A stretch of DNA of 37,207 nt. Origin: Bdellovibrionota bacterium. GTDB lineage: Bacteria; Bdellovibrionota_G; JALEGL01; DATDPG01. Under the pieces are notes generated by a model. That model did not search any database, was not told where the DNA came from, and saw only the letters and a program-made list of their open reading frames with translations. How positions within the stretch are numbered: the stretch's first letter is position 1; each line of letters begins with the position of its first letter. The position numbers and the translations under genes are program-made. Shown piece by piece: positions 14,453 through 33,907 of this stretch. Location of the stretch: the NCBI GenBank assembly GCA_035292885.1, contig DATDPG010000045.1:1-37207 (forward strand). Direction: 5' to 3'.

Positions 14453-14709
14453 GTGAACGGTGTCGAGCGGCAGGCCCCTTTCAATTTTCGCAAGTTCCGA
14501 GAAACGCTCGACCGTCGCGTTGACTTGAATGGAAAGATTATTTATGGTTTTGAACAAGTTGCCCCGCATTTGACCGATCCAAACCCCGGCCCTGCTTTGA
14601 GATTGTGAGCTTCAAGAAAATCGAGCGCGTTCTGCCAGACTTCTCCAAGGACGGCGAGCTTGTCGAAACGCCCTTTGAAGGGGCTAAACGGGTCGTTGAT
14701 TTTCGATAG
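14453..14709 (+). pseudogene. Possible frameshifted gene remnant upstream of TMTC-like gene
   Basis: Two adjacent reading frames look protein-like. The first (14453-14608) starts with GTG and encodes a 50-residue peptide containing NGKIIYGFEQVAPHLTDP. It stops just as the second frame, from about 14590 to TAG at 14707, gives FEIVSFKKIERVLPDFSKDG and then GAKRVVDFR. A single one-base shift near 14590-14600 would join them into about 85 residues. The second frame's TAG overlaps the GTG of the TMTC-like gene (TAGTG), as in a coupled operon. No family is recognised. It could also be two unrelated short frames. The rest of the 14348-14708 gap holds only the candidate promoter at its left end. Confidence 0.3.
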
Positions 14710-16136
14710 TGGCGATCGTGCGCCATCGGTGGCTTCGCGTCTGGATTGTCGCAGCGGCGTTAGGCGCGATGGCCTTCTTTTTCTTTCCCGTCACGAATTT
14801 CCAATTTGTAAGTTGGGACGACCAGGTCCACGTTTATCGTAACCCCATAGTGCTCGGCAACGAAGCGGTGTCATGGCACGATCGTTTGCTCACTCCTTCC
14901 CTCGGGTATCCGATACCGGTCACCATTCTGACCTACCAACTCGAACACAAACTATTCGATCTCGATCCGCGAGGATTCCACGCAACCAACGTCGTCCTTC
15001 ATTTAGCCTCCTGCTTGCTGCTGTTCATCTTGGGACGAGCCCTAGGCCTCGGCTTTTGGGGAGCGTTTTTCTCCATGATGCTGTTCGGTCTTCATCCCGT
15101 GGTTTCCGAGCCCGTTTCGTGGGTCTCCGGCCGAAAAGACCTTCTGGCGTTGTTTTTCTCGCTCGGCGCTACGTTGCTCGTCGTGACCAAAGGAATCTTT
15201 TGGAAACGCTTGCCCACATGGGCCGCCGCAGTTCTTTATCTCCTCGCCATTTTTTCCAAACCTACCGCTGTGTTTCTGCCGCTTTTCTGGGGGGCTGTAT
15301 TTTGGTTTCGCGAGAAGTTGTCTCTTCGTAAAACAATTTTGCGACTTTCGCCCCTCTTTCTCATTTCCATCTCGGTTGTAACCGCAAGCCTTTTCGGGCA
15401 ATCGCGTTTGGGGAGCGTACAAATACCCTATTCACCTTTCGTATGGCTGCGGGAGGTTTGGTACGGCTTCGGGTTTCATGCGAGGCTTTTATTTTTTGTC
15501 CAAGCACCGCTTCCAAAGCAGATGGCCGAGGACATGCCTCCTCCATTTCAGATGACGGTAGATCTCTTTCCCCTGTTGGCCATCACCTTTTTGGTCCTCC
15601 TCATGAAGCTTAATAAGCCCCCAAAGGGGTCTGCAGGACATCTCGGTCTATGGTGGGGAGTTTTATCTTATCTGCCTTCCTCCAACTTGATTCCACTCAC
15701 TCGGTTTTTGGCCGACAGCTACGTTTATTTTCCCCTTGTGGGCTTCTCGTTGTTTTTCGGTGATCGCTTTGAATCTTTCACGCCTCATTTTTCAAAACCG
15801 CTTTGGCGGACATTGGGTCTCATGTTCATTTGTTCGGTGTTCGTTCTCATGGCGATTCGAACGACGGCGGCCATCCTTCCATGGCGCGACAGCGTGCAAC
15901 TCTGGCAAGCCGTCTACCAAAAATATCCGGATCGCCCCTACGTCTGCCGGTTTCTCGGCGACGCGTATGGAACCATGGGTGATTATCACGCCGCGTTACT
16001 CCGGTACGATACGTGCGGAAAAATTTTCGGCCGGGACTTGGTCGAAGAAAAAATCGAACTCACGCGAAGACTGCGGGATGAGCATCGTCCGGTCGAAGAA
16101 ATCCTCCCAGGCAAGCTTGCGGATGAGCTTCGGTAG
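14709..16136 (+). CDS. TMTC-like membrane glycosyltransferase (GT-C fold) with C-terminal TPR
   Basis: The 475-residue integral membrane protein has about 9-11 hydrophobic helices. The first loop after TM1 carries FVSWDDQVHVYRNPIV (Asp-Asp at residues 37-38), the acidic pair typical of PMT/TMTC-type GT-C enzymes. Further TMTC hallmarks are LHPVVSEPVSWVSGRKDLLA, a SKPTAVFLPLF helix and the YVYFPLVGFSLFFG segment. The C-terminus has one or two TPR-like repeats (CRFLGDAYGTMGDYHAALLRYD). Eukaryotic TMTC proteins are O-mannosyltransferases of exported proteins; bacterial members are uncharacterised. GTG 14709 is used. It lies between the PilF/RodZ-like cluster and mtnP-rlmN on the opposite strand, and is one of four such genes in the window. 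Confidence 0.8.
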   Translation: MAIVRHRWLRVWIVAAALGAMAFFFFPVTNFQFVSWDDQVHVYRNPIVLGNEAVSWHDRLLTPSLGYPIPVTILTYQLEHKLFDLDPRGFHATNVVLHLASCLLLFILGRALGLGFWGAFFSMMLFGLHPVVSEPVSWVSGRKDLLALFFSLGATLLVVTKGIFWKRLPTWAAAVLYLLAIFSKPTAVFLPLFWGAVFWFREKLSLRKTILRLSPLFLISISVVTASLFGQSRLGSVQIPYSPFVWLREVWYGFGFHARLLFFVQAPLPKQMAEDMPPPFQMTVDLFPLLAITFLVLLMKLNKPPKGSAGHLGLWWGVLSYLPSSNLIPLTRFLADSYVYFPLVGFSLFFGDRFESFTPHFSKPLWRTLGLMFICSVFVLMAIRTTAAILPWRDSVQLWQAVYQKYPDRPYVCRFLGDAYGTMGDYHAALLRYDTCGKIFGRDLVEEKIELTRRLRDEHRPVEEILPGKLADELR

Positions 16137-24182: not shown

Positions 24183-25784
24183 CTACCGCAAGCAGTCGAA
24201 GTTACGCGCCTCTAACTCATGAACCTCGCCGAAACGGAGGATCGCCTGCTCTCGGATTCTATCGAGTTGCTCGCACCGGCGTTCGCGGTCAAGAACACGG
24301 AGCGGCATCACCCAATACTGAAGCTGTGCCGGCTCCAGCGCTCTAAGTTTTTCAAAGTACGCAAGAGATTGGTTCGTCTCGCCGGCGCGGTAATTCAGGG
24401 CGCCAAGGCAATGAAGACTGTCGAGGTGAATTTTTCGATAGCGGCCAGTAGCGGAAGACAATGCGAGTGCGCGCTCGCAGTGAAATCGAACTTTTTGTGA
24501 ATCCCCTTCTTCTTCGAATAACGGCCAAAGATTGCGGTGGATGCGTGGAGACTCTCCGTTCGTTTCTCGGGCAAAGCTCCAATACGTCATTTCGTTTTTC
24601 CATGTGTACCCGAGCACGAAGGTAAAGACGGAGAACACTGCCAAAATCGCTACGGCCGTTCCAATCCAAATACGGGACCACGCGCCGGTGGGAACAACGG
24701 AAGCAACCACAAGGACCAAGCCGAGAGTAGGAAGGACAAGGTAATGATCCTGAGGTACTCCGGTGATCAAGCCGACTGTGGTTATAAGGAGCAAAGGCGG
24801 TGCACCCGTAAGGGTGCCGATCCAAAGCAGCTTCTTGTTCCTCGCTCGTCGAACGGCAAAAATCAATAGAACGGCCAGAAGACAAACGGAAAACCACGAG
24901 AGCGGCGCGATGGAAGTCGCGGCCTCTCTATAACCTGCGGGAGAGAATGGAAGGGTCATGTTCCCAATATTCTGGAAGAAAACAAACCACCACTCTTCTG
25001 CAGCAGGCGCAAACAAGAAGATCGCCGGATTAAAGCGAATCCCGATTTTCTTGGCGACGATTTCATAGCCTAAAATCAACAAAGCGATGGCCGCAAGCCA
25101 TGAAACTCTCAGTTTCCGGGACCCCTCCCAGCGAGGAAGGGCGAGAAAGGCCGTCACAAGGGCGGGACAAACCAACACGGCCGTCTCTTTGGAGAGAAGG
25201 GCGCACGCATAAAGCGCTAAGCTCAAGAAGAGATAACGCGACTTCCCCTGGACCACAATCAGGACCGAAAGAAGGTAAAACAATGTCAAGAGCGATTCGT
25301 GGCGGGCTGTGATGTTGTAAACGACACTGGCTACGGCCGGGTGAACCGAAAAAGGAGCCGTGAGCAGGAAAGCCGCCACGGATGAAAAGCCGAGCGTTCG
25401 TAGAACAAAAAACAGCGTTGTTACGATCCCAACATGGATCAGCAGGTTCGTCGTTCGAAAGAGTGCGGGCGTTTCAGCCCCCAGAGAGCGTTCGATCAGA
25501 TACGTCGTGAGCTGCAGCGGTCGGTAGACGAGAAAGTCCCTATTGGGGTGGGCCGTTAAGAGGGAAAGCGGATTCTTAAACAATTCCGGAAGCCCACGGA
25601 TGTCCGAAACATGCGGATTGTTTTCGACCATCTCGTGGTCGTCCCAGACAAAACCATTCTGGAGCGAGCGGCCGAACACGCCTGTCACCAGTACGAACAA
25701 GAGCACCCACCCCCAGCTTCTCGGCACGCTACGACCTAACCTTTGGAATTGTGAGGCCAACGGGAACACCATGGAGAGATGCAT
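24183..25784 (-). CDS. TMTC-like membrane glycosyltransferase with C-terminal TPR
   Basis: The 533-residue membrane protein has many hydrophobic helices. TM1 is followed by SLQNGFVWDDHEMVENNPHV (Asp-Asp at 48-49), the acidic loop of the TMTC/GT-C type. Further signatures are FLVYRPLQLTTYLIERSLG, FSVHPAVASVVYNITARHE, LSKETAVLVCPALVTAF and VPQDHYLVLPTLGLVLV. After the last helix come TPR-like repeats (SLHCLGALNYRAGETNQSLAYFEKL). It is a predicted O-glycosyltransferase of exported proteins, by family resemblance only. ATG 25784 or 25772 could start it. It is divergent from the next TMTC-like gene, to which it is most similar in the loop motif and in the C-terminal repeats. Confidence 0.8.
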   Translation of the reverse strand: MHLSMVFPLASQFQRLGRSVPRSWGWVLLFVLVTGVFGRSLQNGFVWDDHEMVENNPHVSDIRGLPELFKNPLSLLTAHPNRDFLVYRPLQLTTYLIERSLGAETPALFRTTNLLIHVGIVTTLFFVLRTLGFSSVAAFLLTAPFSVHPAVASVVYNITARHESLLTLFYLLSVLIVVQGKSRYLFLSLALYACALLSKETAVLVCPALVTAFLALPRWEGSRKLRVSWLAAIALLILGYEIVAKKIGIRFNPAIFLFAPAAEEWWFVFFQNIGNMTLPFSPAGYREAATSIAPLSWFSVCLLAVLLIFAVRRARNKKLLWIGTLTGAPPLLLITTVGLITGVPQDHYLVLPTLGLVLVVASVVPTGAWSRIWIGTAVAILAVFSVFTFVLGYTWKNEMTYWSFARETNGESPRIHRNLWPLFEEEGDSQKVRFHCERALALSSATGRYRKIHLDSLHCLGALNYRAGETNQSLAYFEKLRALEPAQLQYWVMPLRVLDRERRCEQLDRIREQAILRFGEVHELEARNFDCLR

Positions 25785-25872: not shown

Positions 25873-27441
25873 CTGAGTCCTCGCGTCGCAGCCTTACTTC
25901 TGGCGCTTGTATCCTTCGTTGTGTACGGGAGAACTCTCCAAAACGGGTTCGTGTACGACGATCACGACGAGGTTGAGCACAACTCCCACATCACGTCCTA
26001 TCGCAATTTCCCCGATTATTTTCGGCGGCCGTTTTGGGAGGTTACTGCGGCCGAAAATTTTCCAAGCAATATTTACCGGCCGCTGAAACTCGTCTCGTAT
26101 TATGTCGATTATCAAATCGGGGGAAACGAGCCGGCCCTCTACCATCTCTCCAATTTGGTCTTTCATACCGTGGCGTCGGTTCTTCTTTATTTCAATTTGG
26201 TCGGCCTGCATTTCGGCCCGCAAACGGCGTTCTTCGGCGCCGCTTTTTTTGCGTTGCATCCGATGAATTCCGAGGTGGTGTATTACATTTCGGGTCGACC
26301 GGACGCACTGGCCGCCGTTTTCTTTTTCGCCGCGATGCTGATGTGCCGAGTGGGGAGGCCGTTTCTTTCGTCGGTTGGGGGCGCAGCTTTCTTCGGCGCA
26401 CTTCTCTGCAAGGAAACTGTCTTGGTGCTTATGCCCGCACTGGCCCTTCTCGCGATTCGATCGAAAACCAGGGACAGAAAAGCCATGTTCATCACGCTCG
26501 CGGCGTGCAGCTTGGCGGCCCTTGCGTATCTGCTCCTTCGGCAGCAATTTGCGAGGGGAACGCCAATGGGAATCGTTCTCCAATCCATCCAAAGCCGGGA
26601 AGCCTTGAAAACGTGGCTGACATACCTCCAGTTTCTCATGCTCCCCTTCGGACCGGCAGGCTATCGGGAGGTGGCTGGAGCATCCTATGCCGAGAATACT
26701 GCGGCCTCAGCTTTTTTCCTGGGTGTGCTTCTCCTCGCGTTCGTCCGCGGAAGAGCACATTCCCTTGTAAACTGGGTCGGTGTCCTTTTCGTGTTCTCGA
26801 CGTTGTTCTTGGCTTCGGCTCTCACGATGTCCAGCCGGGTGATTTCGGATCGATATCTCTATTTTTCAGTCGTCGGCCTCAGTTTCTTGGTTTGTGCCGG
26901 TCTCGGCGCCTTAAATCGGCGGAGAATCCTTCAGGCGGCTCTCGGAATTCTTTTGCTCATCTTTGGCTCGTTTTCATATCTGGCCGGGAAGCAGTGGAAG
27001 AATGATTTTTCATTCTGGTGCTTTGCCGCGGAAATGAATCCAAACTCCGCCGTGGTTCAGCGAAATCTCGGCTTTATTTTTTTTGAGAGGGGGCGGTTTG
27101 ACGAAGCCGAAGGGGCCTATCTCAAGGCGTTGACCTTATCGGAAGGTGTCGAGTTCAATCGGCGGACTCAACTCAAGAGTCTTCACTCTTTGGGTGCCCT
27201 GTACTATCGGCTAGGGGATCTCGATCGCTCACGAACTTATTATGAAAGGCTACTTACGTTGGATCCGGGACAACAGGAACATTGGCAATTCGTCGTAACT
27301 CTCCTGTTGGCCCAGAACCGTTGCCAAGACGCCGAAAAACTCGTCGGGCAGGCGAACAAACGATTTCCCGGTCGACCGCCGCTCTTGGTTCCGGGGGACC
27401 TTTGCCCAAAGACAAAGAAAACCACGAATCGAATGGACTAG
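25873..27441 (+). CDS. TMTC-like membrane glycosyltransferase with C-terminal TPR, probable CTG start
   Basis: The protein of about 522 residues has TM1 (RVAALLLALVSFVVYG), then TLQNGFVYDDHDEVEHNSHI with the acidic pair, YRPLKLVSYYVDYQIGG, LHPMNSEVVYYISGRPDALA, LLCKETVLVLMPALALLA and SDRYLYFSVVGLSFLV. C-terminal TPRs follow (VQRNLGFIFFERGRFDEAEGAYLKA is split over two helices). The whole of TM1 lies upstream of the first conventional in-frame start, GTG 25921, which would cut it off. The only sensible start is CTG 25873, with GGAGGAG six bases before it. No ATG, GTG or TTG exists in frame between the upstream stop at 25816 and that point. The gene is convergent with the prepilin gene. Confidence 0.8.
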   Translation: MSPRVAALLLALVSFVVYGRTLQNGFVYDDHDEVEHNSHITSYRNFPDYFRRPFWEVTAAENFPSNIYRPLKLVSYYVDYQIGGNEPALYHLSNLVFHTVASVLLYFNLVGLHFGPQTAFFGAAFFALHPMNSEVVYYISGRPDALAAVFFFAAMLMCRVGRPFLSSVGGAAFFGALLCKETVLVLMPALALLAIRSKTRDRKAMFITLAACSLAALAYLLLRQQFARGTPMGIVLQSIQSREALKTWLTYLQFLMLPFGPAGYREVAGASYAENTAASAFFLGVLLLAFVRGRAHSLVNWVGVLFVFSTLFLASALTMSSRVISDRYLYFSVVGLSFLVCAGLGALNRRRILQAALGILLLIFGSFSYLAGKQWKNDFSFWCFAAEMNPNSAVVQRNLGFIFFERGRFDEAEGAYLKALTLSEGVEFNRRTQLKSLHSLGALYYRLGDLDRSRTYYERLLTLDPGQQEHWQFVVTLLLAQNRCQDAEKLVGQANKRFPGRPPLLVPGDLCPKTKKTTNRMD

Positions 27442-27488: not shown

Positions 27489-28202
27489 TTACTGAAGCTT
27501 TACGACCGTCGTGTCGAGATGCACGTTGTGGCATTGGCCGTCGCGGGCGCGCCAGGTGCAGAGTACTTTGAGCTTCTTTTCCCGCTCGGGACTAGTTGTG
27601 CTGGTGATGTCCTCATCTTCGCACACCAGCCATTTCGAGCGTATTCCTTTGATGTCGCCGCTAGCTCCAGGCGCCACATCACAATGGCCGGGCGAGGGTG
27701 TGCTTTCACTACTTGTCGCTGTCCTGATTGTCACGTTGGAATAGTCTTCCCCCTTACAGATGACGAACGTCCGAGTGAGTTTGTAGGGGCCGCGGTCCGC
27801 AACCGCATCATCCAGGGCTTGGCCCGATAGATTGCTTGGTGCTCCCGAAAGCTCCGAAGTCACGTCTTCCTTTGTCTTTCCTTCCGAATTTAATTCGATT
27901 TCCTGAACGAGGCGACCTTCATTCTCGCCGTTTTGCTTCTGAAGCAACGGCTGCGAGACATTGGCCACAGCATCCCAGTTACCCAGATCGGCCCAAGCTA
28001 CGTCCTTCAGCGACTCGATCTTGGCTTGGCAAATGTTTGTGGCCGACGTCAGCATGCTGGCCCCTTGGTTTCCCCGAATCACGAGCGTCGTCATCGCCGC
28101 CATGCCGAGAAGGCCGATGGCGAGAACCACCATAGCGACGAGAATCTCGACGAGCGTGAATCCTTGGGACCGAGAAATGGGGCGTGAGATTGAATTATGC
28201 AT
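27489..28202 (-). CDS. PilV-like type IV prepilin (minor pilin)
   Basis: The 237-residue protein begins with a short basic leader and the class III signal GFTLVEILVAMVVLAIGLLGMAA (split as G, then FTLVE with the glutamate at +5). This is the site cut by prepilin peptidase PilD. After the helix come GNQGASMLTSATNICQAKIE and a C-terminal part with Cys pairs (ICKGED, GHCDV, LVCED, LCTWRARDGQC). The IGLLGMA and ICQAKIE patterns fit the PilV minor pilins, which prime pilus assembly. Only this pilin is visible here. Its promoter is well marked. It lies downstream of the PilR-type regulator, on the same strand. Confidence 0.85.
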   Translation of the reverse strand: MHNSISRPISRSQGFTLVEILVAMVVLAIGLLGMAAMTTLVIRGNQGASMLTSATNICQAKIESLKDVAWADLGNWDAVANVSQPLLQKQNGENEGRLVQEIELNSEGKTKEDVTSELSGAPSNLSGQALDDAVADRGPYKLTRTFVICKGEDYSNVTIRTATSSESTPSPGHCDVAPGASGDIKGIRSKWLVCEDEDITSTTSPEREKKLKVLCTWRARDGQCHNVHLDTTVVKLQ

Positions 28203-28271: not shown

Positions 28272-29681
28272 CTACCGATGGCCAACCTCTCGATCCAGTT
28301 GGCGAAGTTTGTCCTCCAGACGAAACTGCTTGATCTTATAAAGGAGCGCCCGATGGCTGATCTCCAATAACTTTGCCGCTTTGGTTCGGTTTCCGTGGGA
28401 CGTCTGAAGCGCCCGCAAGATTAAGTTCTCCTCGATCATGCGCGTGGCCTTTTTGATCGAGAGATCATCTGAACTAAAACGAGTCATCCCGGTCGACGCT
28501 CCCTGCGAGGTTCGAACGCTGGCGGGCAGGTTCTCCGCTTGAATCCGGTCCCCCGTGGTCAACACCATCGCCCGCTCGATCGTGTTTTCAAGCTCTCGGA
28601 CATTTCCAGGCCAATCATACTCCATGAAAACGTTCATCACCTCGGGCCCGATGTTCTTGACCTTCACGGCCAGCTTCTTGTTGTATTTTTCGACGAAATA
28701 GTCGACCAGAAGCGGGATATCTTCCTTTCGTTCCCGGAGAGAGGGGAGAAAGATGGGAAGAACGTTCAACCGATAGAACAGATCCTCCCGAAACGTCCCT
28801 TGTTCCACCTCTTTCGCAAGATCTTTCACCGTGGCCGCGACGATTCGGACGTTCACCTTGATCGGACTGACGTCCCCCACTCTCCGAATCTCTTCCTCTT
28901 GCAAAGCGCGCAAAAGTTTTACCTGCAGAAGAAGGGGCAACTCTCCGATCTCATCCAAAAACAGCGTCCCCTGATCCGCCTCCTCGAAGAGTCCCTTCTT
29001 TGTGCGAATGGCTCCCGTGAACGATCCTTTCATGTGACCGAACAGTTCGCTCTCCAGAAGATTCTCCGGGATCGCACCGCAATTCACCGTGATGAACGGT
29101 TTGTCGGCACGGGAGCTGTTGTAATGAATCGCGCGCGCGATCAGTTCTTTCCCGGTTCCACTATCCCCCAGGAGAAGGCAGGTCGTTTTATAGTCGGCGA
29201 TTTTCCGAATCGTGTTGAAGATCTCCATCATGTGCGGGCTTTTCGCGACGATGTTGGAGAACTGATACTCCTTCTTGATCTCCCCCTTTAAGCGAACGTT
29301 TTCCTTCTGCAGTCGCTCCCGCTCTTCCGCTTTTCGCAGCGTGAGAATGACTTCATCCGGCTTAAACGGTTTGGAGATGTAGTCGTACGCGCCGCGTTTC
29401 ATCGCTTCGATGGCCGTATCGACGTTTCCGAACGCCGACATCACGACCACCGTAAGGTCGGGATTCTTCACTTTGGCCTTCCGCAGAAATTCAAGGCCGT
29501 CCATCTCCGGCATTCGGATGTCGCTCAAAATGAAATCAAAGTTTTCACGCTCGATTTTCTCGAGCGCCACTTTGCCGTTTTCCGCTGTCTGAGGGTCGTA
29601 CCCCTCTTTTTTCAATAACAAAGAGAGCATATGACGCATGCTCTCTTCATCGTCCACAATCAGTATTCGTCGTTTGGCCAC
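28272..29681 (-). CDS. sigma54-dependent response regulator, NtrC/PilR type
   Basis: The 469-residue protein has a receiver domain (ILIVDDEESMRHML, phospho-acceptor Asp54 in FILSDIRMPEMDG, SKPFKPDE). An AAA+ sigma54-interaction domain follows, with Walker A GDSGTGKE (172-179), the loop MKGSFTGAIRT, GTLFLDEIGELPL and YDWPGNVRELENTIERAM. A Fis-type HTH closes it (TKAAKLLEISHRALLYKIKQF). The sigma54 loop reads GSFTGA in place of GAFTGA. GTG 29681 is the start, as the receiver fold begins there. Genes for a prepilin (downstream) and a kinase fragment (18 bp upstream) suggest PilR-like control of pilus genes, but NtrC-type relatives with other targets are equally possible. Confidence 0.93.
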   Translation of the reverse strand: MAKRRILIVDDEESMRHMLSLLLKKEGYDPQTAENGKVALEKIERENFDFILSDIRMPEMDGLEFLRKAKVKNPDLTVVVMSAFGNVDTAIEAMKRGAYDYISKPFKPDEVILTLRKAEERERLQKENVRLKGEIKKEYQFSNIVAKSPHMMEIFNTIRKIADYKTTCLLLGDSGTGKELIARAIHYNSSRADKPFITVNCGAIPENLLESELFGHMKGSFTGAIRTKKGLFEEADQGTLFLDEIGELPLLLQVKLLRALQEEEIRRVGDVSPIKVNVRIVAATVKDLAKEVEQGTFREDLFYRLNVLPIFLPSLRERKEDIPLLVDYFVEKYNKKLAVKVKNIGPEVMNVFMEYDWPGNVRELENTIERAMVLTTGDRIQAENLPASVRTSQGASTGMTRFSSDDLSIKKATRMIEENLILRALQTSHGNRTKAAKLLEISHRALLYKIKQFRLEDKLRQLDREVGHR

Positions 29682-29698: not shown

Positions 29699-29857
29699 TT
29701 ACACTACCAGAGACAACCCGCCTCGCAAATTTTGCGTAGTGCCGGCCGGTATCGGAAAAAGAAACACGAATCGCGTGCCCTTCCCGACTTCGCTCCGAAC
29801 AACGACATAGCCGCCCATATTCTGAACGAGATTCAAGCTGATAAAGAGACCGAGACC
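29699..29857 (-). pseudogene. 3'-end remnant of a histidine kinase gene (partial duplicate)
   Basis: The frame encodes GLGLFISLNLVQNMGGY and then VGKGTRFVFLFPI, the G2-box end of a histidine kinase ATPase domain. It matches the last ~50 residues of the intact kinase at 31511-33247. By hand alignment about 98 nt are roughly 90% identical, including an exact 36-nt stretch. Sequence upstream of GLGLF does not match, so the H, N and G1 boxes are missing. It lies 17 bp ahead of the response regulator, the expected kinase-regulator junction. It has no start of its own that makes sense. Confidence 0.85.
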
Positions 29858-29943
29858 GTCGGCGGCGCGTGCAGGTGACATCCACATCACCGGCGAGTAT
29901 CTTTTTAAATTAAATTCCTGCCTGCGTTCGATGGGATTGGATT

Positions 29944-31461
29944 TTGATTCGATATTACGTTGCCTTATTCGCCGTTGTCATCGCGTCCTACTGGAATATT
30001 TTTCCAAACGGATACATCGGCGACGACCATTACCTTCTGGAAAACCATCGTTTTTTTTCGGATTGGGGGAATCTCTATCTTCTGTTTACCCGTGATAGCT
30101 GGGATGTTTTTTGGCCGGAACATGGCCCGGTTGGTTATTGGAGGCCGTTGTTTCTCGCCTCCTTCTACTTTGACAATTGCCTTCCATTACCCACGCTGGT
30201 GTCACACCATCTTGTAGATCTACTTTTATACTTCGGTGCTGTGATTGTCGTATTTCGTTTCCTGTTCCACTTTGTGCAGGATGCCACGGCCGCTGCCCTC
30301 GGTGCGGTGTTCTTCGCGGCATGGCCTCTACATACGGACTCCGTGACCCTGATGCTGGGCCGTGAATACAGTATGTGCGCGATCTTGTGGATAGGAGCCT
30401 ACATGTATTCTGAGCGGTATTGTGGCCGCGGACCCCCATCTTGTCTCTGGATTTCATGTGTGTTCTTTGCCTTGTCTCTTTTGTGCGTTGAGAGCGCGAT
30501 CGTATTCCCGTTCATGGCGCTGCCCATGCTCTTTCGCGGTCCGGGTGCGTCGGGCCGACGCGTTTACCGACTCGGCGCCAGTTTCATCGCTGTTATCATA
30601 ACGTACTTGGCTTATCGGAAATGGATGATTCCGATCAAGCTGTATCCGCCCGAACACATGAATTTGGAATTGCTTTGGGATTCGGGAGCGGTAGCTCTGC
30701 GTTCCTTCCGCGCCATCCTTTGGCCCTTTGATTTTGTTGTGACCGAAACCCCCGCACCTCTGGTCGGCAGAGTTGCGGACGGGTTCCTGGGATTATTCCT
30801 AGGAACGGTGGGTTTGTTGGCCGTCGTTATTTCATATATCAAGAGATGCCCGAAAGGTTACCTTCCATTATTATTGTATCTCACGCCGTTGCTGTTGGTG
30901 ATCCCTCCCTATCCCCGCGGCTCGGTGTACCAAGATCGTTATCTTTTTCTTCCATCCGTCGGATTGGCTTTGGCCATAGGTTACACGGCAGGTTGGCTTC
31001 GGGAACGAGGTTCAGCTCGACTGCTCCTCCTGTCTGGTGGACTCATGGGGGTATGTGTGCTCAGCTTTATTTTTACCAGCCTTGCACGCAATTTCGACTT
31101 TCGAAACGATATCAGCTTTTGGTGTACGGAAGCCGATCGGCAGCGCACCGCTTTTGATGCGAATAAACGTTGCGGAAAGGCATTTCAGAATGTCGGACGA
31201 GACTCCGAGGCGCTCGTCTACTACGATCGGGCACTGAATCTTAAATTGCATCCAGACGTCATCAACGACTATGGCGTGATTCTCGCGGGAAGGGGCCAGT
31301 GCAAAGACGCCCTCCGTTTGTTTCGCTTCCTCCGAAAGAGGGATGAAACTTATATCAAAGGATGGAAAAACGAAATCGCTTGCATTCGGCAATTGAAGGA
31401 CGAAGCCCAGCTCCGGCGAGTGTTACCGGCCGCCAAAAAGGCAATCCCCCGTGAATTCTAA
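29944..31461 (+). CDS. TMTC-like membrane glycosyltransferase, interrupting the kinase-regulator pair
   Basis: The 505-residue membrane protein has TM1, then FPNGYIGDDHYLLENHRFFS (Asp-Asp at 27-28), GYWRPLFLASFYFD, PLHTDSVTLMLGREYSMCA, CVESAIVFPFMALPML and YQDRYLFLPSVGLALAIG. A TPR-like end follows (ALVYYDRALNLKLHPDVIND and DALRLFRFLRKRD). It is the fourth TMTC-like gene of the window and the most divergent in the loop motif. TTG 29944 is the only workable start after the upstream in-frame stop. It lies between two copies of the kinase 3' end and runs against both. It is a predicted O-glycosyltransferase, by family only. Confidence 0.8.
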   Translation: MIRYYVALFAVVIASYWNIFPNGYIGDDHYLLENHRFFSDWGNLYLLFTRDSWDVFWPEHGPVGYWRPLFLASFYFDNCLPLPTLVSHHLVDLLLYFGAVIVVFRFLFHFVQDATAAALGAVFFAAWPLHTDSVTLMLGREYSMCAILWIGAYMYSERYCGRGPPSCLWISCVFFALSLLCVESAIVFPFMALPMLFRGPGASGRRVYRLGASFIAVIITYLAYRKWMIPIKLYPPEHMNLELLWDSGAVALRSFRAILWPFDFVVTETPAPLVGRVADGFLGLFLGTVGLLAVVISYIKRCPKGYLPLLLYLTPLLLVIPPYPRGSVYQDRYLFLPSVGLALAIGYTAGWLRERGSARLLLLSGGLMGVCVLSFIFTSLARNFDFRNDISFWCTEADRQRTAFDANKRCGKAFQNVGRDSEALVYYDRALNLKLHPDVINDYGVILAGRGQCKDALRLFRFLRKRDETYIKGWKNEIACIRQLKDEAQLRRVLPAAKKAIPREF

Positions 31462-31510
31462 ATGATGATGGATCGATCACCCCAAGAACGAGAACGGCTC
31501 GAACAACGTC

Positions 31511-33247
31511 TCAAGTGGTTGACGGGCCGCCGTCCCCTCGAGCAGTCCCGACGGATATCGGAAGGAGAAAAATGAATCGCGTTCCCTTCCCGATTTCGCT
31601 CTGAACATCAAGATAGCCGCCCATATTCTGAACGAGATTCAAGCTGATGAAGAGACCGAGACCGGTTCCCTTTCCGGGCGGCTTGGTCGTGTAAAATGGA
31701 TCGAAGATCTTGGTCAATTCATCCAAAGGGATGCCGGGACCGTTGTCTTCGACGACGGTTTGGATCACCTCTCCGCTTTCACTGAACAGAAATGCCGGCA
31801 GCCCGGCGCGTTCGGAGCGCATTTCTTCGACATCCACGCCGCCTGTGTCTTCCCTTCGGCGTCTCTGACGCAGTTCCAAAATTCCCGGCCGAGCGGAATC
31901 CCCGCGGCGCGTTCGCGCACGGAAGAGCGTGCCGAGCGGCTGCTCACGCAAGCGCTGAATGGACAATCGCTGCGTCCGAACCACGATGATCCCTTGATCG
32001 CCCAACACCTGCACCGCGTTGAGAACCAGATTCCAAAGCACCTGGCGCAAGGGATCCGGATCCAAAGGAATCAGAGGTACGTCGGCCGACAGTTCCAGGC
32101 GAATCGTCAGACCCGGAGAGATTCCGTGCCCTTGAACTCCCTCCACCGCGGAACGTATGACATCATTAATATCGCAAGGATCGGGATTGGCCGCCTGAGG
32201 CCGGGCGTACTCCAAGAGTTGCCGCACGATTCGGCTGATTCGTGTCAGTTCGGATTCGCATCGGGCCAGAAGCTCCGTGGTCTCCGAATCTTGGGTCACC
32301 GATTTGAGAAGAGAGAGATACCCTAGTACCGCTCCCAAGGGATTTCCCACTTCGTGGGCAACACCTGCGGCCAACCGGCCGACACTCGCCAGCTTCTCTC
32401 CCCGGAGCAATGCGTTCTGGGCTTCCTCCAGTTTCTGATTGAGGTTCTCGAGGGATTGCGCGTAGTCGGCAAGTTTTTCTTGGTCGGTGAGCAGGTGGCG
32501 CCTCATCAAATCGAGTGCCGCCCCCAGTCTCCCGATTTCGTTATCTCGGACGACGGGTACCGGCCGGCCGGTGTCCCCGGCGGCGATCGCTTCCGCGGCC
32601 CGTTCAATTTGTTGCAACGGATTGACGACGACGTGCCGTATCAACCGGTACCCGAACAGAAGAAGGACCCCCGCGAACGCGATGACGAACATGATGATCG
32701 CGACGGCGACTTTTCGGAATCCCTCCCGAGCGGAATGATCGGGAAAGCTCAGACTCAAAATTCCCACCGGCTCCTTTTTTGGTTGGACGGAAAGAAAAAC
32801 GGTAATCGCCTCGTTCCGCTCCACCACCACGCGCGGAGCGATCGGAAGAGTTGAAAGGAAATTTCTTTCCGTCAGATTCACCTGCGGCTCCGTCCCCCCG
32901 CGCCAGCGCCCGGAAGCGGAAAACAGATTCCACTGCTTGACTCCCGAGGGATACCCGCCGCGTACCGCCATTCGTTTGATCGTGGATTCGATCCCGCCGT
33001 CGGACCGCGTCGGATCCCAAGTCCGCTCGACCAGTTCCAGGACGGCGCGAGCGACGGCTTGAGCGTTCTGAACCGCCTGGGCCCGCAAAAGATCTTCGGA
33101 AATCTTGAGGCCGATCGATCCCACGATCAATACCGACACGATCGCCAATACGCCCAAATACCAGACGATTTCTCGTTGCAGTCGCCCGCTCGCGATTTGG
33201 GAACGTTCGGTAATCCAGTCCAGTTTCATCGTTCGCCGTGAAGACAT
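31511..33247 (-). CDS. Membrane sensor histidine kinase with HAMP domain (PilS/NtrB-like partner candidate)
   Basis: The 578-residue kinase has TM1 (about 28-48), a periplasmic sensor region (50-178), TM2 (180-200) and a HAMP linker (to about 255). The H box GVAHEVGNPLGAVLGY carries His298, followed by N box VLWNLVLNAVQVL, G1 DNGPGIP, F box FDPFYTTKPPG and G2 GKGTGLGLF. All catalytic boxes are intact. An unusual Arg/Glu-rich insertion of about 60 residues sits between the N and G1 boxes (431-491). It is separated from the response regulator by the TMTC-like gene, yet a remnant of its own 3' end lies right next to that regulator, so the two were probably once neighbours. ATG 33247 is used; ATG 33229 is possible. 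Confidence 0.92.
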   Translation of the reverse strand: MSSRRTMKLDWITERSQIASGRLQREIVWYLGVLAIVSVLIVGSIGLKISEDLLRAQAVQNAQAVARAVLELVERTWDPTRSDGGIESTIKRMAVRGGYPSGVKQWNLFSASGRWRGGTEPQVNLTERNFLSTLPIAPRVVVERNEAITVFLSVQPKKEPVGILSLSFPDHSAREGFRKVAVAIIMFVIAFAGVLLLFGYRLIRHVVVNPLQQIERAAEAIAAGDTGRPVPVVRDNEIGRLGAALDLMRRHLLTDQEKLADYAQSLENLNQKLEEAQNALLRGEKLASVGRLAAGVAHEVGNPLGAVLGYLSLLKSVTQDSETTELLARCESELTRISRIVRQLLEYARPQAANPDPCDINDVIRSAVEGVQGHGISPGLTIRLELSADVPLIPLDPDPLRQVLWNLVLNAVQVLGDQGIIVVRTQRLSIQRLREQPLGTLFRARTRRGDSARPGILELRQRRRREDTGGVDVEEMRSERAGLPAFLFSESGEVIQTVVEDNGPGIPLDELTKIFDPFYTTKPPGKGTGLGLFISLNLVQNMGGYLDVQSEIGKGTRFIFLLPISVGTARGDGGPSTT

Positions 33248-33337: not shown

Positions 33338-33907
33338 ATGTCCAATGAACGCAGGAGCCGGAAGTTCATCAACAGCTGGGCGCAGGTTTCGATGGCCGCT
33401 GAAATCGTTCTCCATGCCTTGCTGTTGGTCGCTCTAATAGCCTTAATCCTTTTTGCGTGGCCGTTTGCGGGCATGTTGAGCCCGTATAGCCTCGAAGATC
33501 ATCAGGCGATCGCGAAGGAGCTCTTCCTTCTCAACTATTCCAAGTGGCCGCTCTTCGTTGCATTGGCCGTCTTCGTGGGATTCGTGAGTATCCTCTTTAC
33601 GCATCATATCGTCGGCCCGGGGTACAAGTTCGAACGGGCCTTGGGCGAACTCATGGAAAGAAATTTGGATGTCTCCATCACGCTTCGAAAATGGGACTAT
33701 TTTCGAGAAATTCAAGACGGTCTCAATCGAGTCGTCACGCGCTGGCGGGAAGACCTCGGAAAAGTGTCCCGGGACCAAAAAAAGGCGCTTTCTCTGATCC
33801 GCGATCTGCGCGGAAAAACACTCACCGCGGAAAAAGGGGAAGAAATCGAACAGCTCTTGCTCTCGATCGGAGTCATTACCGACAGTTACAAGGGTTTTTC
33901 AGTTTAA
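33338..33907 (+). CDS. HAMP-like two-helix membrane protein of unknown function
   Basis: The 189-residue protein has two membrane helices (about 24-46 and 72-92). A HAMP-like linker follows, with VGPGYKFERALGELMERNLDVSI and LRKWDYFREIQDGLNRVVTRW, then a coiled helix (to about 170). It resembles the N-terminal part of chemoreceptors and sensor kinases but has no signalling or kinase domain. It starts with ATG after CAAGGAG. It is divergent from the kinase and overlaps the end of the prepilin peptidase gene by 4 bp. A role as an accessory to the neighbouring sensor is possible. Its length is consistent with a complete small gene. Confidence 0.7.
   Translation: MSNERRSRKFINSWAQVSMAAEIVLHALLLVALIALILFAWPFAGMLSPYSLEDHQAIAKELFLLNYSKWPLFVALAVFVGFVSILFTHHIVGPGYKFERALGELMERNLDVSITLRKWDYFREIQDGLNRVVTRWREDLGKVSRDQKKALSLIRDLRGKTLTAEKGEEIEQLLLSIGVITDSYKGFSV

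Follow-up and report, generated by a model that had tools for sequence, protein, structure and literature searches.

A kinase 3' end repeated on both sides of a TMTC-like gene between a histidine kinase and a response regulator of a Bdellovibrionota bacterium

We analyzed a window of 37,207 nucleotides (contig DATDPG010000045.1, assembly GCA_035292885.1) from a Bdellovibrionota bacterium, in which the 3' end of a histidine kinase gene is present, in the same direction, on both sides of a TMTC-like gene. That gene lies between the intact kinase and its likely cognate response regulator. The locus appears to be a readable scar of gene gain within a signalling operon, in a bacterium with no close sequenced relative in our comparison. 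The explanation that we prefer, with a probability of about 0.5, is homology-facilitated illegitimate recombination (HFIR), in which incoming DNA pairs with a homologous gene end on one side and is joined illegitimately on the other. We prefer such anchored import over an exact duplication of the target, which we regard as doubtful. The features of the locus are as follows.

27489-28202 (-): PilV-like minor pilin (N_methyl; sub-threshold match to TIGR02523), the next gene of the putative ancestral cluster
28272-29681 (-): sigma-54 dependent response regulator, likely cognate (receiver-AAA-Fis HTH, Pfam)
29699-29857 (-): kinase tail fragment ORF, 159 nt, consisting of copy B and the C-terminus to the stop
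29738-29858 (-): repeat copy B, displaced kinase 3' end
29859-31543 (no strand): inserted segment, 1,685 bp, bounded by the repeat copies
29944-31461 (+): cargo, GT-C-like membrane protein with weak C-terminal TPR ('TMTC-like'), similar to 25921-27441
31511-33247 (-): intact histidine kinase (HAMP, HisKA and HATPase_c, Pfam)
31544-31664 (-): repeat copy A, intact kinase 3' end, which starts at the G2 box and excludes the last 10 codons
33904-34863 (-): prepilin peptidase (PilD-like; PF06750 and PF01478), the putative ancestral upstream neighbour of the kinase

The first-pass annotation of this DNA had described a repeated kinase tail of about 98 nt with about 90% identity. The repeat is real and its length was slightly understated: an independent search recovered an ungapped direct repeat of 121 nt in the same orientation, with 106 of 121 positions identical (88%). 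No other direct repeat in the window reaches 45 nt, and a blastn search of the bacterium's own genome with the repeat returned the second copy (E = 2e-37) and no further significant copy. The fragment ORF matched only positions 73-110 of HATPase_c (PF02518), the last third of the domain, with E 1e-6, and 17 nt separate its end from the start of the regulator at 29681. It is therefore a kinase tail only, as had been described, and the descriptions of an intact kinase carrying the same tail and of an intervening gene on the other strand were likewise borne out. The frame of the fragment is open, with possible starts up to 29890, and its translation could be coupled to that of the regulator.

Alignment of the two copies, a check that had been proposed together with the original description, placed the borders at 29858/29859 and 31543/31544. 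On the fragment side, the homology breaks sharply at the G2 box: 15/15 bases match inside the border, and the similarity is at chance level directly outside. On the kinase side, the homology fades toward 31544 and does not reach the last 10 codons, where the identity is about one third and thus near chance; a gapped search of the kinase-side flank beyond the repeat revealed no similarity. The mismatches are clustered, with one in the first 51 nt (17 codons) and 14 in the next 69 (23 codons); over the 40 codons, dS is 0.26 and dN is 0.10. Uniform decay is not an explanation for this 14-versus-1 clustering, and differences concentrated toward the C-terminus fit either the fading homology of diverged orthologues or local gene conversion. 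With its sharp 5' break and its homology fading toward the 3' side, the fragment fits the import of a diverged donor copy no worse than it fits an exact duplication. A direct repeat was left at this locus, as had been proposed, and a target-site-like duplication is one candidate for its origin.

We considered whether the structure could be an assembly artefact, given that the assembly is a draft of 214 contigs. However, 15 of the 121 positions are mismatched between the copies, the longest exact match is 36 nt, the junctions join sequences that have no detectable shared stretch, and similar structures occur at other loci, so that this explanation is scarcely credible. Another explanation is a tandem duplication of the whole kinase, after which most of the second copy was replaced or lost around the TMTC-like gene. 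This would leave the fragment in its native place before the regulator, as observed. However, residual similarity is absent on both sides just outside the repeat, and comparison of sequence beside the repeats with the regulator and the kinase body found nothing above shuffles (a single match reached P 0.03 in roughly twelve tests and was taken as chance). In addition, relatives with two full kinases at this locus, which would speak against an opened operon, were looked for, and none of those compared has two. We therefore judge the tandem duplication to be very unlikely.

The insert (29859-31543) has no terminal inverted repeats and contains no transposase or integrase (recombinase) gene, the GT-C-like membrane protein being its only substantial gene. 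Insertion of a DDE transposon was rejected on these two grounds and because the repeat is 121 nt long rather than a short target duplication. The recombinase gene that an integrase-mediated element would carry is likewise missing from this insert. Pfam assigned no family to the cargo protein at E 1e-3. It shows 24% identity over 430 aa (24-27%) to the protein of the neighbouring GT-C and TPR gene at 25921-27441, and its C-terminus has weak TPR matches. The name 'TMTC-like' given in the first-pass annotation is thus fair shorthand for the architecture and is no family assignment. Matches to the cargo protein were found in 17 of the 58 genomes searched, including that of the window, the best outside match having about 25-27% identity. 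With the TMTC and GT-C glycosyltransferases with TPR, it shares the multi-pass membrane protein and the C-terminal TPR-like region; it differs from them in that it matches no Pfam family significantly, is about 25% identical to its relatives and has a putative activity. A recent joint duplication of the TMTC-like neighbour and the kinase tail was rejected, given that the two proteins are 24-27% identical and the repeats are 88% identical. The divergence between cargo and neighbour is far older than that of the repeat, and therefore the cargo was not derived by duplication of the neighbour in the same event. Four mutually diverged genes of the GT-C/TPR type lie within 17 kb beside the pilus genes (14709-16136, 24183-25784, 25921-27441 and 29944-31461), and further relatives occur elsewhere in the genome, on contigs C47, C158, C142 and C202.

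The proposal that a kinase-regulator operon had been opened by insertion agrees with the gene order in other genomes, all of which are distant relatives, none being of the same genus or family. The order prepilin peptidase-kinase-regulator, with nothing between, is found in L044 (a deltaproteobacterial metagenome-assembled genome), L150 and L151, and the kinase and regulator are uninterrupted in L124. In genome G004, the best kinase match lies directly before the best regulator match, and the regulator orthologue is 71% identical. At six further loci (L152, L153 and L155-L158), more distant kinase and regulator homologues are likewise same-strand neighbours, either adjacent or at most about 0.6 kb apart; these may represent paralogous systems. 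When genome contigs were scanned with the kinase, L044 was the one usable orthologue to emerge, and no close relative was found. The kinase-regulator pair of the window still lies between the peptidase and the minor pilin, and the minor pilin occupies the same place in L126 and L127. Given this flanking and the uninterrupted order in relatives, the operon was opened in the lineage of the window. The gene orders support an ancestral arrangement of prepilin peptidase, kinase, regulator and minor pilin in one transcription direction, and the gain of about 1.7 kb of DNA with the GT-C/TPR gene between the second and the third of these. The window also contains, on the opposite strand between the peptidase and the kinase, a gene for a 189-aa predicted membrane protein (33338-33907, +), which has no significant family match, overlaps the peptidase end by 4 nt and is absent between these genes in L044.

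The separated partners show no sign of a functional break. An alignment showed that the H, N, G1, F and G2 boxes are all present in the kinase, and both its H-box and the phospho-acceptor Asp of the regulator are intact. The earlier statement that the pair had been split therefore holds for the gene order, in which an opposite-strand gene now stands between two partners that keep all their signalling residues. The domains are those of the NtrB/NtrC type, namely HisKA and HATPase_c in the kinase, and receiver, sigma-54 AAA and HTH in the regulator; the best NCBIfam matches are AtoS and AtoC, respectively, both under their cut-offs. The locus resembles the PilS-PilR type (type IV pilus, NtrC family) in that a kinase and a sigma-54 regulator lie beside prepilin peptidase and minor pilin genes, a likeness of gene neighbourhood only; the window kinase differs in having a HAMP domain. 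In three genomes of the same order (G001-G003), the regulator directly follows the peptidase and the kinase is missing at the locus. The receiver of the regulator is degenerate in G001, has lost the aligned phospho-acceptor Asp in G002 and is gone in G003. In these three genomes, loss of the kinase seems to have gone together with loss of receiver function. The regulators retain their AAA and DNA-binding parts (L125 7805-9196, L126 9871-11241 and L127 425-1414). As judged from sequence, the intact receiver and intact kinase of the window genome suggest that selection still maintains the pair.

Next, we examined about 0.92 Mb (about 30%) of the genome for recurrence of this structure by a repeat search, after which pairs were judged by eye, so that no rate is claimed. 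At least four other loci bear the same scar, and three of them enclose toxin-antitoxin-like genes.

L230 2111-3915 (G000, C108): recG 3' end, 126-nt copies, enclosing an AbiEi/AbiEii toxin-antitoxin pair directly after recG
L164 16301-17163 (G000, C19): 3' end of a PPDK-domain gene, 109-nt copies around a BrnT-like toxin and a CopG-type antitoxin
L168 3368-4418 (G000, C118): purH 5' end, 205-nt copies around an ORF6N gene
L168 12061-13423 (G000, C118): 3' end of an LpoB/CsgG-like gene, 77-nt copies around an MqsA-like gene (label from a weak family match)
RNase J / NHL-repeat-like gene: 110 nt within RNase J, a less clear and possible case

At the first four of these loci, one side carries the complete host gene and the other retains no more than its end. 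No AbiE lies next to the recG gene of G001. Three further pairs (L161, L188 and L228) were left out of the count as internal repeats or unexplained. The density of local direct repeats in the control genomes G004 and G002 was similar to that in the window genome, and in G004, a member of the same phylum, 188-nt direct repeats (82%) enclose a BrnT/antitoxin-like pair named from the sequences (L204 10379-11717). This suggests that the process is probably a general one and not peculiar to the window genome. The recurrence favours anchored import at the kinase locus, where the same scar as at recG, the PPDK-domain gene, purH, the LpoB-like gene and possibly RNase J is seen. The parallel scars also bear on an integrase-type insertion, in which the cargo would have moved as a non-autonomous element. 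Its attachment site would rebuild the end of the host gene and push the old end aside, a behaviour of integrative elements at the 3' ends of genes. An intact gene and a displaced gene end at each locus are what such insertion would leave. However, the inserts that we inspected contain no recombinase gene, several unrelated target genes would require several integrases, and in the purH case the repeated end is the 5' end, all of which make this mechanism quite unlikely.

The remaining alternative is an exact long target duplication, in which a stagger cut or copying of 121 nt produces identical copies that later diverge mainly by decay of the orphan. The two models predict different substitutions: differences should look like decay after an exact duplication, and should be synonymous and ortholog-like after anchored import. 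We pooled the repeat differences of six loci and obtained a synonymous share of 0.58. Simulated post-insertion decay of a neutral fragment gave means of 0.38-0.42, with 0/300 simulations reaching 0.58 in each of four settings, and simulations with both copies constrained gave 0.72-0.74, so that the observed value lies between the models. Since the pooled share exceeds that of the decay simulations, part of the divergence seems to be older than the insertions; the pooled differences are too synonymous for decay alone, which speaks against exact duplication and for import. The kinase repeat alone has a synonymous share of 0.43. This value is in line with a duplicated fragment that decays in the ordinary way, and the model with both copies strongly constrained is rejected (P ~0.003). 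On its own, it does not discriminate between decay and import. The clustering of its mismatches is at odds with the uniform differences of decay, and the drop in identity toward the C-terminus favours import. For exact duplication, there are also an in-frame stop in the orphan copy at the PPDK-domain locus and an architecture that matches the Helicobacter pylori pattern described in PMC1643837. The import model, for its part, calls for a donor with a kinase tail beside TMTC-like cargo, and none was found among the genomes searched. On balance, we consider exact duplication a possible, rather unlikely origin of the scar.

Under anchored import, the following course is the most likely. The incoming DNA of about 1.7 kb with the GT-C/TPR gene would also have borne a kinase 3' end, which would have paired with the resident kinase by homologous recombination; the other end would have been joined illegitimately inside the G2 box of the resident kinase. 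This would yield a kinase that is complete but has a new C-terminus, together with the cargo gene and, before the regulator, 159 nt left over from the old kinase end. ComEC and DprA homologues are present in the window genome but likewise in most control genomes, and their presence says little about competence. As a consequence of the import, the kinase would now end in 10 new residues beyond the repeat. The regulator cannot be read from a kinase transcript without crossing the opposite-strand gene, and therefore its transcription probably now starts in or near 29859-29943, in place of read-through from the kinase. Promoter and terminator consensus scans of this new intergenic region did not clearly exceed those of shuffled sequence. 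The kinase and the regulator probably still cooperate in trans, since their signalling residues are retained. Recombination between the two repeats is predicted to delete the cargo and to restore a contiguous kinase-regulator operon in frame. We also considered that the lineage may systematically acquire individual genes and toxin-antitoxin modules through a mechanism directed at gene ends, possibly with dedicated help. Each such event would leave a complete gene and a displaced end; the host gene would stay intact, and recombination between the repeats could later remove the cargo cleanly. As a general statement about the lineage, this is unlikely.

Two known systems resemble this locus. 'Insertion with long target duplication' was described by Nobusato, Uchiyama, Ohashi & Kobayashi (2000) from a comparison of two Helicobacter pylori strains, mainly for restriction-modification genes, according to the description in PMC1643837; this type of insertion is also mentioned for restriction-modification genes in PMC3031569. 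The common feature is a small gene cargo between long direct repeats of the target, and at the window locus we found long flanking repeats with clear borders and an uninterrupted target in distant relatives. In contrast to the Helicobacter pylori cases, the window locus has a GT-C/TPR gene as cargo, other loci have toxin-antitoxin-like genes, and the comparison was with distant relatives in place of an empty-site strain of the same species. HFIR has been shown experimentally in Acinetobacter, Streptococcus and Pseudomonas, and orphaned (displaced) gene 3' regions have been discussed in connection with it (PMC5361080, PMC2884548). Its homologous anchor on one side and non-homologous join on the other would account for our locus, and it can leave orphaned 3' ends; it was experimental in those bacteria, and here it is deduced from the DNA. 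This route of gene gain is already known, and the window locus is a new case of it, with a GT-C/TPR type of cargo that we did not find described in the literature examined. The parallel scars within one genome allow the mechanism behind 'insertion with long target duplication' to be tested.
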